A DNA stretch of 64,000 nucleotides. It comes from Microbacterium rhizosphaerae (GTDB taxonomy: Bacteria; Actinomycetota; Actinomycetes; Actinomycetales; Microbacteriaceae). Position numbers and translations under genes: made by a program. Where the stretch lies: assembly GCF_034120055.1 (NCBI RefSeq), contig NZ_CP139368.1:2604001-2668000 (forward strand), read 5' to 3'. Position 1 is the stretch's first letter, and each line of letters opens with the position of its first letter. This document shows, in pieces, positions 25,007 to 29,854 of the stretch. The notes below the pieces were generated by a model. It did not search any database and was not told where the DNA came from. It saw nothing but the letters and a program-made list of their open reading frames with translations.

Positions 25007-27901
25007 CTAGGCGAACGCCTCGACCGGCGGGCAGGCGCACACGAGGTTGCGGTCTCCCCACGCGTTGTCGATGCGGCGCACCGGCGGCCAGTATTTGGTG
25101 CGCACCAGCGTGTGCACGGGGTAGACCGCCGTCTCGCGGGAGTAGGGGTGCGTCCACTCCTCCGCGACGATCGACTCCGCGGTGTGCGGGGCGTTGACGA
25201 GGGGGTTGTCGTCCGCCGGCCACTCCCTCGCGCCCACCGCGATGGCCTCCGCCTTGATGGCGATCATGGCGTCGACGAAGCGATCGAGCTCGGCGAGGTC
25301 CTCCGACTCCGTCGGCTCGACCATGAGCGTCCCGGCGACGGGGAACGACATCGTCGGCGCGTGGAACCCGTAGTCGATGAGGCGCTTGGCCACGTCGTCG
25401 ACCGTCACCCCGGTGTCGTCCTTCAAGGGCCGCAGATCGAGGATGCACTCGTGGGCGACGAGTCCGCCGGCTCCCGTGTAGAGCACCGGGTAGTGCTCGC
25501 GCAGACGCGCGGCGAGGTAGTTCGCCGCGAGCACGGCGGCGGACGTCGCATCCTTCAGCCCCGCGGCGCCCATCATGCGCACGTACGCCCACGAGATCGG
25601 GAGGATGCTGGCCGAGCCGTAGGGTGCGGCCGAGATCGGGCCGCCCTCGAACACGAAGCCACCCGCGTGATCGGCGCGCTGGGCGAGGTTGTGGGCCGGC
25701 AGATAGGGCGCGAGGTGCGCCTTGGCCGCGACCGGGCCTACACCCGGCCCGCCGCCGCCGTGCGGGATGGCGAACGTCTTGTGCAGGTTCAGGTGCGACA
25801 CGTCGCCGCCGAGGTCGCCGAAGCGGGCGTAGCCGAGGAGCGCATTCAGGTTCGCGCCGTCGACGTACACCTGGCCGCCGGCGTCGTGCACGGCCTGGGT
25901 GATGTCGACGACATCCTGCTCGTACACGCCGTGCGTGGACGGGTAGGTGATCATGAGCGCGGCCAGCTCGTCGGCGTGCGCCGTGATCTTCGTGCGCAGG
26001 TCGTCGAGGTCGACGTTGCCCGCGTCGTCGCACGCGACGACCACGACCCGCATCCCCGCGAGGACCGCGGACGCCGCGTTGGTGCCGTGCGCGGACGACG
26101 GGATGAGGCACAACGTGCGCTGCGCGTCGCCGTTCGCGTGGTGGTAGCCGCGGATGGCCAGCAGGCCCGCCAGCTCGCCCTGCGAGCCGGCGTTCGGCTG
26201 CAGCGAGACCGCGTCGTACCCGGTGACCTCGGCCAGCCACGACTCGAGCTGCTCGATCATCGCCAGGTAGCCGTGCACGTCCTGCTCGGGCGCGAAGGGG
26301 TGCACGCGCGAGAACTCCGGCCACGACACCGCCGCCATCTCGGTGGCCGCGTTGAGCTTCATCGTGCACGAGCCGAGCGGGATCATGCCGCGGTCGAGCG
26401 CGTAGTCACGGTCGGCGAGCTGCTTCAGGTAGCGCATCATCGCCGTCTCGCTGCGGTGCGTATTGAAGACGGGATGCTCGAGGTACGCGTCATCCCGCAT
26501 CAGCGATGCGGACACCGCACGCAGCGGCGTCGCGTCGGCGTAGGCCAGGTCGCGCACGTCGTTCTCGTCCGCCTCCGGCAGCCCCAACGCCCACGCGACG
26601 GCCGCCAGGTCGTCGGCCGTGGTCGTCTCGTCGACGGAGATGCCGACGGTCGCGTCATCCACCCAGTGCAACTGGAAGCCCTTCGACCGCGCGCGCTCGA
26701 TCACCCGCCGGGACGGACCCGGCGTGACGACGCGGATGGTGTCGAAGAACGCGTCGGCGACGAGGTGCAGGTCGTAGGAGCGCAAGCGCTCCGCGAGCGC
26801 CTCGGCCTTGCGCGCGACCTCGGTCGCGATCTCGCGCAGGCCGTCCGGCCCGTGGTAGACCGCGTACATCGACGCCATGACGGCCAGGAGCACCTGTGCG
26901 GTGCAGATGTTCGAGGTCGCCTTCTCACGACGGATGTGCTGCTCGCGGGTCTGCAGGGAGAGCCGGTAGGCCGGGTGCCCGGTGGCGTCCTGCGAGACGC
27001 CGACGAGGCGGCCGGGCATCTGTCGCTCGATGCCCTGGCGCACCGCCATGTAGCCGGCGTGCGGGCCGCCGAAGCCGAGCGGGACGCCGAAGCGCTGGGT
27101 CGTGCCCACCGCGATGTCCGCGCCGAGCGAGCCGGGCGAGCGCAGCAGCGTGAGGGCGAGGAGATCCGCCGCGACCACCGCGAGCCCGCCTGCGCGGTGG
27201 ACGGCGTCGATGACGCCCGACGGATCCCAGACGCGGCCGGTCGCTCCCGGGTACTGCACGAACACGCCGAACGGCTCGACAGGCTCGCCGACCGAGTTCG
27301 CGAACGGCGCGCCGTTCGCGAGGTCGGCCTCGACGATCCTGATGCCGACCGCGGCCGCACGCGCGTGCAGCAGCGACTTGGTCTGCGGGAAGGCGTCCGT
27401 GTCGACGACGAAGGTCGCCGAGGTGGACTTCGAGACGCGCCGGGCGGCGAGCATCCCCTCCACGACGGCGGTCGATTCGTCGAGCATCGACGCGTTGGCG
27501 GTCTGCAGCCCGGTGAGGTCGGTCACCATCGTCTGGAAGTTGATCAGCGCCTCGAGGCGGCCCTGCGAGATCTCCGGCTGGTACGGCGTGTACGCCGTGT
27601 ACCAGGACGGGTTCTCGAACACGTTCCGTGCGATCACGGAGGGCGTGATCGTGTCGTAGTAGCCGAGGCCGATCATGGGGCGCGCGGTGCGGTTCTGCGA
27701 GGCCAGCGCGCGCAGCTCTGCCAGCGCCTCGGCCTCGGTCGCCGCCGGGGGGATGTGCGTCGTCTCGCGCGGCTGCGCGTGGATGGATGCCGGCACGGCG
27801 GCCTCGACGAGCGCCTCGACCGTGTCGTAGCCGACGACCTCGAGCATCGCGCGCTGCGCGGCGGCGTCCGTCCCGATGTGGCGATCGGTGAAGGCGGTCA
27901 T
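25007..27901 (-). CDS. gcvP: Glycine dehydrogenase (decarboxylating), P protein
   Basis: A 964-residue homodimer-type P protein. It decarboxylates glycine with PLP and passes the aminomethyl group to lipoyl-GcvH. The N-terminus [16 protein letters not shown], the middle [19 protein letters not shown] region and the PLP lysine in [17 protein letters not shown] are diagnostic. The start overlaps gcvH by 4 bases. It is the last gene of gcvT-gcvH-gcvP and falls under the glycine riboswitch upstream of gcvT. Confidence 0.97.
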
Positions 27902-28281
27902 GCAGCCCCCTCCGTGAGGGCGACATAGGCAGCGCGGTCGAGGAGGGCCTCGACCGCGGCCGGGTCGACCCGCACCTTGATGAGCCAGCCCTCGCCGAAC
28001 GCGTCGGCGTTCACGAGCGACGGGTCGGCGTCGACGGCGCCGTTGACCTCGAGGACCTCGCCGGACAGCGGCGCGTACAGCTCGCCCACCGACTTGGTCG
28101 ACTCGATCTCGCCGCACACGTCGTTGGCGCCGACGGCGGAGCCCACGGAGGGAAGGTCGACGTAGACGATGTCACCGAGCTGCTCCGCGGCGTAGTCCGT
28201 GATGCCGATGGTCGCGACATCGCCGTCGAGGGCGACCCATTCGTGCTCGGCGGTGTACTTGAGGGCGTCGAGATCGGTCAT
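27898..28281 (-). CDS. gcvH: Glycine cleavage system H protein
   Basis: A 127-residue lipoyl carrier. The lipoylated lysine is in [15 protein letters not shown], and YTAEHEW stands near the N-terminus as in all H proteins. It shuttles the aminomethyl intermediate between P, T and L proteins. It overlaps gcvT and gcvP by 4 bases each, so the three are translated in series. The L protein (lpd) is not in the window. Confidence 0.96.
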
Positions 28282-29438
28282 TTGTTCCTCCGGTAGAAGG
28301 GCAGGGCGGTGACGGTGGCGGGGATGCGGGTGCCGCGGACATCGATGGAGAGCACAGTGCCCTCCGCCGCCGCGGCGGGGGTGACGAAGGCCATCGCGAT
28401 CGGGTGGCCCAGAGTGGGGCTCAGCGCCCCGCTCGTGATCTCGCCGACGACGTCGTCGCCGAGAAGAACGCTGTAGCCGGCGCGGCCGGCGCGCTTGCCG
28501 TCCGACGTGAGACCGACCAGGACGGTGGCGCGAGGCGCGGGCGTCGTGTGGCCCTTGCCGACGAAGTCCTCCTTGGCGTCGACGACGACGCGGCCGAGGC
28601 CGGCCTGGGCGGGCACGATCGCGCGCGACAGCTCATGGCCGTAGAGGGGCATGCCCGCCTCGAGGCGCAGCGTGTCACGTGCGGCGAGCCCGGCGGGCAC
28701 CAGCCCGAGCGGCTCGCCAGTGGCGAGGAGCGCGTCCCACAGCGCGCCGGCGGCCTCGTTCGCGACGAGCAGCTCGAAGCCGTCCTCGCCCGTGTAGCCG
28801 GTGCGGGCGACGAACAGCCACGCGCCGTCGAACGTTCCCTCGCGCCACGCGTAGTAGCCGAGGGTGTCGAGGTCGGGGATCTGCACCCCGGGGGTCGCGC
28901 GAACGATCTGCTCGGCGATGGGGCCCTGCACGGCGATGAGCGAGAGGTCCTCGGTCGCATCCTCGATGATCGGCGCGTCGGCGCCGAACGTCAGCGACTC
29001 CCCGAGGATCGGGTTCTCGACGACCGTCGGGGTGGCGTTCCACGCGTCGAGACCGGCCGCGAACGCCGCTGCCACGGCATCCCGATTGCCCGCGTTGGAC
29101 ACCACGAGGAAGTACTGCTCGCCGGTGCGGTACACGATGACGTCGTCGATGATCGTGCCGTCGTCCGCGAGGACGAGCGAGTACTTCGCCTTGCCGATCG
29201 CCATGGCCGAGATGCGCCCCGCCAGCACGTAGTCGAGAAATTCCGCGGCACGGCCGTCGTGGACCCAGAACTCCGCCATATGCGAGATGTCGAACAGTCC
29301 GGCGGCCTCGCGGACGGCACGGTGCTCGGCGAGGTCGGAGCCGTAGCGGACGGGCATCAACCAGCCGCCGAAGTCGGTGAAGGACGCACCGAGAGCCTCG
29401 TGGCGGTCACGGAGCGGGGTGTATCGGGGGTCTGTCAT
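28278..29438 (-). CDS. gcvT: Glycine cleavage system T protein (aminomethyltransferase)
   Basis: A 386-residue tetrahydrofolate-dependent aminomethyltransferase. It releases ammonia and forms methylene-THF. Recognised by the N-terminal [39 protein letters not shown] and the C-terminal [17 protein letters not shown]. The ATG at 29438 has GGGAG nearby, and that ribosome site lies within the pairing region of the riboswitch expression platform. First gene of the operon. Confidence 0.97.
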
Positions 29439-29487
29439 GAGTTCTCCCGTTGCGGGTGGGCAGCCGTCGGTCGGCGGCTGAGAACTC
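29439..29487 (-). promoter_or_regulatory. Expression platform of the glycine riboswitch (SD-sequestering stem)
   Basis: GAGTTCTC (29480-29487 on the minus strand) directly follows aptamer II and is perfectly complementary to GAGAACTC (29439-29446), which touches the gcvT ATG and overlaps the GGGAG ribosome site. A smaller CAGCCG/CGGCTG stem (29461-29466 with 29475-29480) nests inside. This suggests control of translation rather than termination. Confidence 0.6.
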
Positions 29488-29765
29488 CCCCTCTGTCATG
29501 GGCCTGAGAGCTTCGCGAGTGCAGGGCACGCGCTTTCACCGTCGGCGGATTCCGAGAGAACATCGCAGGAGATCGTGGGGACCTGAAGAGATCGGGTCAC
29601 CGGGGTTTCGACTCGGCGCTGGAGCGCCTCGCTCAACCCGATTTCTCGCTTCGCTCGAAATCGCTTTTCAGAGCGGCCTGACCCGCGCGGTACACGGACC
29701 TGAGAGATTGGCGGGGAGCTTGCTCCTTCGGTGCCCGGCATACCGGGGCTCTCCCGCGAGGGTCA
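29487..29765 (-). ncRNA. Tandem glycine riboswitch upstream of gcvT
   Basis: Aptamer I spans 29679-29765. It has the P1 strands TGACCC-T-CGCGG and CCGCG-C-GGGTCA, the core ACCGAAGGAGCAA (29720-29732) and CTCTCAGG (29699-29706). Aptamer II spans 29487-29675. Its P1 is CTCTG with CAGAG, its core CCGACGG-TGAAAGC is at 29539 and below, CTCTCAGG is at 29503-29510, and GACAGAG follows. Both match the actinobacterial consensus I know, except that GGAAAG after the second P1 reads GAAAAG. The hairpin arm of aptamer II between AAAGCG and CCGACGG is about 116 bases instead of roughly 30, because of the repeat at 29591-29664. Glycine binding should switch on gcvTHP. Confidence 0.88.
29591..29664. repeat. 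Palindromic repeat element inside aptamer II of the glycine riboswitch
   Basis: Two nested inverted repeats lie side by side: ATCGGGT (29591-29597) with ACCCGAT (29636-29642), enclosing GGGTT/AACCC and GGCGCT-GG-AGCGCC; then CGATTTC (29639-29645) with GAAATCG (29657-29663). It resembles short intergenic palindromes I recall from Microbacteriaceae, but no second copy was found in this window. Confidence 0.6.
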
Positions 29766-29791
29766 TGAGGCCTTATTCAGTTGGCCCGTCA

Positions 29792-29820
29792 AGCATAGCG
29801 GCGGGATGCGTCCCCGTCAC
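29792..29820 (-). promoter_or_regulatory. Promoter of the gcv operon
   Basis: On the minus strand GTGACG (29815-29820) and TATGCT (29792-29797) are 17 bases apart. Transcription would start near 29785, about 20 bases before aptamer I. Confidence 0.5.
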
Positions 29821-29854
29821 GACGCAGATCCGGGGCTCGCCGGACGTCCGGGCT

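Follow-up and report, generated by a model that had tools for sequence, protein, structure and literature searches.

Riboswitch insertions have been described before, and the common view of them is as loops without conservation. Actinobacteria prefer translational control by glycine riboswitches (PMC6944388); in the main text of that study of glycine riboswitch conservation, so far as it was accessible, the term 'P2 stem' is absent and 'insertion' receives zero or one mention. The nearest precedent that we found for the insert described below comes from a different leader: in the pneumococcal trp leader, a BOX repeat lies between two T box riboswitches (PMC3049150). Among the titles and abstract openings covered by our literature search there was no report of such a riboswitch insert, and a further candidate, PMC3110155, was unrelated to it in the accessible part.

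Here we describe a tandem glycine riboswitch of Microbacterium rhizosphaerae in which one aptamer arm holds a conserved, repeat-derived and recurrent insert, an unusual variant. The account that we favor, with moderate confidence, is that a REP-derived module of three hairpins in the P2 arm of aptamer II has been repeatedly gained and/or lost, with P2 re-formed around it, and that the module probably delays or tunes the folding of aptamer II.

Results

A glycine riboswitch with an enlarged aptamer arm upstream of gcvT

The window that we analyzed is a stretch of 64,000 nucleotides from the M. rhizosphaerae genome; the features discussed below are listed by window position in Table 1. A sequence-only reading of this stretch had placed both aptamers of a tandem glycine riboswitch on the minus strand before gcvT, and the Rfam scan that it proposed agrees for the most part: aptamer I lies well above the gathering score of 32 for RF00504, whereas aptamer II, matched at 29483-29578 of the minus strand under permissive filters, falls below it at 27.8 bits. 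This shortfall arises because three consecutive hairpins (hp1, hp2 and hp3), which the model does not span, enlarge the aptamer II P2 arm; in the RF00504 alignment of aptamer II, the P1 and P3 strands fit, unlike the enlarged P2. An aptamer that has grown through such an insert can thus escape a family model. No Rfam family besides RF00504 matched within 29400-29850, up to an E value of 10. With gcvT and then gcvH downstream on the same strand, the element occupies the position before a glycine cleavage gene, and judged from its sequence it is a tandem glycine riboswitch of the known kind.

Directly before the gcvT start, GAGAACTC (29439-29446) can pair with GAGTTCTC (29480-29487), covering the putative ribosome-binding site; this modeled pairing is as expected of translational control, and the stretch probably serves as the expression platform. 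An open frame of 81 codons (29496-29741, minus strand) overlaps the riboswitch, probably by chance.

Table 1. Features of the riboswitch leader and downstream genes, by position in the window
Feature	Position	Strand	Evidence or remark
Glycine aptamer I (RF00504)	29678..29766	-	69 bits, E 2.8e-12, against gathering score 32
Glycine aptamer II with enlarged P2 arm	29491..29673	-	Sequence, sub-threshold RF00504 match, same core in relatives
Aptamer II P1	CTCTG 29669-29673 with CAGAG 29491-29495	-	
hp1, GATTTC-GA-GC-GAA-GC-GA-GAAATC	29640..29662	-	Pattern search of 366 genomes, fold, pair counts
Strand A, GATTTCGAG	29654-29662	-	Can pair with strand C
hp2, GGGTTGAGCGAG..CGAGTCGAAACCC	29603..29639	-	REP-like arms, exchanged covarying tip
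hp3, GGTGACC..GGTCCCCAC	about 29575..29601	-	Less conserved hairpin; fold, alignment
Strand C, CTCGGAATC	29548..29556	-	Can pair with strand A, rebuilding P2 around the insert
Probable expression platform	29439..29487	-	Fold z -1.88, 6/200 shuffles equally stable; function inferred
gcvT, aminomethyltransferase, first gene downstream	28278..29438	-	PF01571 E 6.3e-83, PF08669 E 8.8e-23
gcvH, glycine cleavage H protein	27898..28281	-	PF01597 E 2e-38

In the P2 arm of M. rhizosphaerae aptamer II, 118 nt separate CTCTGAAAAG from CCGACGG, as against 8-38 nt by the identical measure in 293 of 366 congeneric genomes, so that the arm is indeed enlarged, as first suspected from the sequence. Likewise sound were the suggestions that the aptamer core is kept and that the P2 arm is a tolerated site. 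The P3/P1 core CCGACGGTGAAAGC...GCTCTCAGG...CAGAG is, by eye, that of element-less congeners. In these riboswitches the P2 loop lies away from the inter-aptamer contacts. The two inverted repeats described in the insert are present, not nested as had been thought but side by side, and accompanied by a weaker third hairpin. From 5' to 3' the arm reads hp1, hp2, hp3, a spacer, strand C and then the normal CGCCGACGG. The 5' half of hp1 is at the same time strand A of P2, and its 3' half is referred to here as strand B. An 11-nt inverted repeat (29587-29597 with 29636-29646) spans part of the insert.

One module recurs at the same point in the genus

A search for the hp1 word GATTTCGAGCGAAGCRAGAAATC with up to 3 mismatches found it in 39 of the 366 congeneric genomes, once in each, against 0 for the reversed control. 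With the exception of L081, all of these matches (38/39) sit in a glycine riboswitch leader, and hp2 accompanies 35 of the 38, being absent from G073, G074 and G283. A census by arm length (88-118 nt) yielded 38 genomes, 8 of them additional to the hp1-word census, and every one of these arms has, by eye, hp1- and hp2-like sequence within the 80 nt inspected; the most divergent arm, that of G146, is missed by model R1 (hp1+hp2) at E 1e-6. In total 43 of the 366 Microbacterium genomes carry the module, 42 in aptamer II and one (G313) in aptamer I, where the arm classes searched were 8-38 nt and 88-118 nt and 31 genomes neither fit these classes nor carry the module in aptamer II. Presence is patchy, and the long arm is not shared by all close relatives, whereas sharing by all of them would, according to the sequence-only reading, have pointed to an ancestral extension. 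That reading foresaw neither the occurrence of the insert in 43 genomes, once in aptamer I, nor its lower variability relative to the flanking sequence, nor the two mutually exclusive partners of a P2 strand described below.

In G313 (L106, about 617-740) the module occupies the P2 arm of aptamer I, and the arm of aptamer II is short. The ends of this module are aptamer-II-like (GCGAT..GGATC), as if an arm had been swapped between the aptamers.

A related pattern matched 46 stretches in a collection of named records. Half of them (23) come from Microbacterium or near kin, all in the riboswitch and 21 with hp2; the other 23, from other groups, lack hp2 and, over the 220 bases tested, any core of a glycine riboswitch, and we took them as unrelated palindromes. 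The 23-base palindrome of hp1, or a one-base variant, also occurs outside riboswitches in L112, L116, L118, L119, L132, L138, L150, L154 and L157, records titled Chitinophagaceae, Chitinophagales or Marinilabiliaceae, some of them multicopy. Tips of the hp1 type may arise in unrelated repeat families. Model R1 gives 28-40 bits to three stretches of one Xanthobacteraceae MAG, and it found no good match (one at 25.3 bits) in 15 genomes of the same order but of different families.

Parts of the module belong to a dispersed palindrome family

The insert had been read as a dispersed repeat, which applies to some of its parts and not to the whole. The hp2 arms, GTTGAGCGAG and CGAGTCGAAAC, are the arms of a dispersed palindrome, TTGAGCGAGCGNAGCGAGWCGAAAC, that has 26 matches with up to 2 mismatches in the M. 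rhizosphaerae genome (G000; control 0) and, at the same tolerance, 13-67 matches in each of 8 genomes searched (controls 0). We take these palindromes to be of the family called REP. The hairpin hp1 carries the tip of this family, GAGCGNAGCGAG, on different arms. By eye, the sole palindromic one among 5 matches to the full-ended pattern GGTYGAG..CGAAACC in M. rhizosphaerae is the riboswitch copy, and several of 11 other genomes have one to three further palindromic copies.

The 74-nt stretch first singled out, by comparison, is single-copy, as is hp1+hp2. A BLAST search with an 86-nt stretch found no second copy in its own genome (best other match, E 0.16), and in none of 38 genomes did R1 detect another good copy; the five riboswitch copies scored 74-91 bits and all other matches at most 29.2. 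We therefore rejected the idea that the hp1+hp2 unit is dispersed as a whole, since hp1 occurs once per matching genome and R1 has no second good match; with no other good copy in M. rhizosphaerae, the unit appears single-copy and site-specific. At the level of sequence similarity, membership of the dispersed family is limited to the arms of hp2 and the tip of hp1. The Y1 transposase (PF01797) was found in 0 of 8 genomes, with the control positive in 5 of 14.

Other palindromes occur nearby and elsewhere. In G005 (L084) and G200 (L089) a second dispersed palindrome, GTTTCGTCTCGCTCCGCTCGCTCAACGACCG, follows hp3 in the aptamer II P2 arm, which reaches about 180 nt; in G022 (L096), CCCTGAGCCTGTCGAAGGG lies in aptamer II P3b. 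With at most 1 mismatch, CCCTGAGCCTGTCGAAGGG has 1 match in G022 and 43 in the M. rhizosphaerae genome. The latter also contains arrays of short palindromes spaced by about 50, 39 and 23 bases (G000:C1:3404750-3404974, 743474-743819 and 1456751-1456953).

Strand A has two possible partners

Over the 43 arms, strand A (GATTTC in M. rhizosphaerae) pairs with strand B in hp1 at a mean of 5.86 of 6 positions, a figure taken as the best of 11 offsets without a shuffled control, and can pair with strand C at a mean of 5.30 of 6, against 2.36 for shuffled tails. For 15 of these arms, however, full shuffling of the tail gives sequences that pair with A as well as the real tail does in more than 5% of cases. 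Strand C often lengthens the helix into GAGCG, and when the last four bases were kept, 21 of 43 tails beat 95% of shuffles (mean -9.71 vs -6.00 kcal/mol). All three strands have changed together in G179, where A is GAAATC and both B and C are GATTTC, and in G272, where A is GAAAAC and both B and C are GTTTTC. Forced folds favor the long P2 (A:C) over hp1 in 36 of 43 arms, with a median of -3.7 kcal/mol and -5.5 in M. rhizosphaerae; in the remaining 7, hp1 (A:B) is predicted to be the more stable.

We propose that in the RNA strand C, at the far end of the arm, folds back to pair with strand A at the beginning, rebuilding P2 around the module, and that aptamer II survives because of this re-pairing. 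Since hp1 is transcribed first, A:B should form first and A:C should then replace it; as strand A is the 5' half of hp1, hp1 would have to open again so that P2 can close. Such opening would probably delay or tune the folding of aptamer II, any effect on the glycine response being, like the order of folding, presumptive. The three-strand changes, which come without intermediates, could equally reflect re-insertion with target duplication, and the A:B and A:C data also fit insertion beside an existing P2 hairpin whose 3' strand was duplicated.

hp1 and hp2 appear constrained

Folding of the leader, proposed at the outset as a check, gave no excess stability: the whole 306-nt leader is no more stable than its shuffles (z 0.62). 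When inserts were folded alone, 3 of 5 clearly exceeded their shuffles in stability (z -2.5 to -4.5), and those of M. rhizosphaerae (z -0.74) and G012 (z -0.52) did not. Among 39 distinct rows of alignment A5, which contains 42 of the 43 module sequences (G146 is absent), 95.0% of the cells at hp1 and hp2 pairs are standard, and covariation is 0.180 against 0.066 +/- 0.008 in shuffles that leave kinship in, with 0 of 500 as high; sliding the partners drops the score to at most 0.079. It is on this comparative evidence, covariation together with the recurrence of one unit at a single site of aptamer II in 42 genomes, that we judge the insert to be real. Six pairs show changes on both sides, a number reached in 44 of 500 shuffles. 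A strand test for selection at the RNA level showed, among the departures from pairing, no excess of G-U over A-C on the transcribed strand, with 16 G-U and 25 A-C cells, or 15 and 13 once one doubtful pair (12 A-C cells and 1 G-U cell) is removed; the pairing could therefore be kept at the DNA level.

Divergence was compared over 780 pairs of 40 genomes, excluding G171 (hp2 end unrecognized) and G120 and G068 (no gcvT read). In the closest bin to contain several pairs (8 pairs, third-position divergence 0.1-0.2), hp1+hp2 differ by 0.051, gcvT third positions by 0.139, and hp3+tail by 0.178, the last figure perhaps inflated by the aligning of tails of unequal length. The next bin (57 pairs) gave 0.144, 0.266 and 0.382, respectively, and the order is the same in two wider bins (421 and 293 pairs). 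Strand B is better conserved than strand C. As far as these comparisons of sequence go, hp1 and hp2 are constrained for as long as a genome retains them.

This constraint bears on the possibility that the insert is a neutral passenger, a REP-like palindrome in a tolerated loop that leaves the switch unchanged; hp1 would then be what is left of the original P2, and B and C would represent a target-site duplication. Many riboswitches tolerate variable insertions that fold as stable stem-loops, on the accessible portion of the work of Barrick and Breaker (PMC2258182); B and C do resemble a short direct repeat flanking hp2-hp3 (GAAATC/GGAATC here, GATTTC/GATTTC in G179), and the leader contains other repeats too, in G005, G200 and the P3b of G022. 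A passenger would, however, not be expected to show the lower divergence of hp1+hp2 relative to linked third positions or the better conservation of B than of C. Moreover, the hp1 core CGAGCGNAGCRAG is kept in most rows while the hp1 arms change, and a single module, not an assortment of repeats, fills all 38 arms of 88-118 nt. We put the chance of a pure passenger just short of even.

The module is scattered over the gcvT tree

On a tree of gcvT, the presence of the module requires no fewer than 19 changes, of which well-supported branches force 10, in a sample of 72 rows (41 with the module) of which 17 cover under half the columns, the bootstrap being unsettled and the element-less rows a non-random sample. 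Labels shuffled on the same tree need a mean of 23.5 changes, and 17 of 500 shuffles were as low as the observed number, so that the module is only slightly clustered. Under the account that we favor, the module would have been gained and/or lost many times at one point in Microbacterium, within a tolerated arm.

The same scatter could be produced if the module was already present in the ancestor of the genus and was later lost many times, by deletion between B and C or within the arm. Several element-less arms look like footprints of such losses, with hp1 alone in G283 and G074 and CGAGCGAAGC..CGCTCG in G017 and G109; G283 groups with G005, G200, G022 and G255 on the gcvT tree, at a weakly supported fork; and G180 beside G146 resembles an empty and a filled state of one site. 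G146 (L181) and G180:C1:3024802-3024850 share GATTTTCGAGCTTCGCTCGA and the end GAGATC, and are paired here by this likeness. Against wholesale loss, the 293 short arms, most of them without a footprint among the matches listed, fit a short ancestral state, and the 15 genomes from other families offered R1 no good match. An ancestral extension is a real possibility against which we lean.

A third reading has the module arise once, after which module-bearing leaders spread between species by homologous recombination, for which speak the patchy presence on the gcvT tree, the near identity of hp1 in distant rows and the apparent move of the whole P2 arm into aptamer I in G313. Because the tree was built on the gcvT coding region, exchange of the leader alone is compatible with it, but hp3+tail diverge more than third codon positions (perhaps through alignment inflation), unlike what recent wholesale transfer would give, and we regard this reading as on the unlikely side. 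These explanations are partly compatible with one another. Finally, that the dispersed palindrome has been domesticated into a nested second switch, in which competition between A:B and A:C delays the folding of aptamer II or sets a threshold for it, strikes us as rather improbable.

Discussion

Within one genus, the same switch can be found with this insert filled, empty, footprint-like or moved, and a repeat family related to the insert is present in the same genome. Nature has thereby set up a test of how foreign structured RNA is accommodated by a riboswitch. The system allows one to ask if regulatory RNA gains new structure from mobile-type palindromes, and if the cooperativity or folding of a tandem aptamer is altered by an insert in P2.

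The locus resembles the RF00504 tandem riboswitch of the gcvT type in both aptamers, in its P1/P3 core and in its position before gcvT; it differs in that a conserved module enlarges P2 of aptamer II, which the gathering score then misses. Like the variable insertions of Barrick and Breaker (2007, PMC2258182), the insert places stable stem-loops at the periphery and leaves the core intact, but those insertions are described, in the accessible part of that work, as long and nonconserved, whereas the present one shows conservation across species and is akin to a dispersed palindrome. Its likeness to REP palindromes lies in short imperfect palindromes, shared arms and tens of copies per genome, from which the single-copy hp1+hp2 unit and the absence of the Y1 transposase from the 8 genomes set it apart. 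As in the BOX/T box leader, so far as the accessible part of that report describes it (PMC3049150), a small dispersed repeat has become part of a composite riboswitch leader; the BOX repeat sits between two riboswitches, whereas here the repeat-like module is housed within the arm of an aptamer and is found in 43 genomes.
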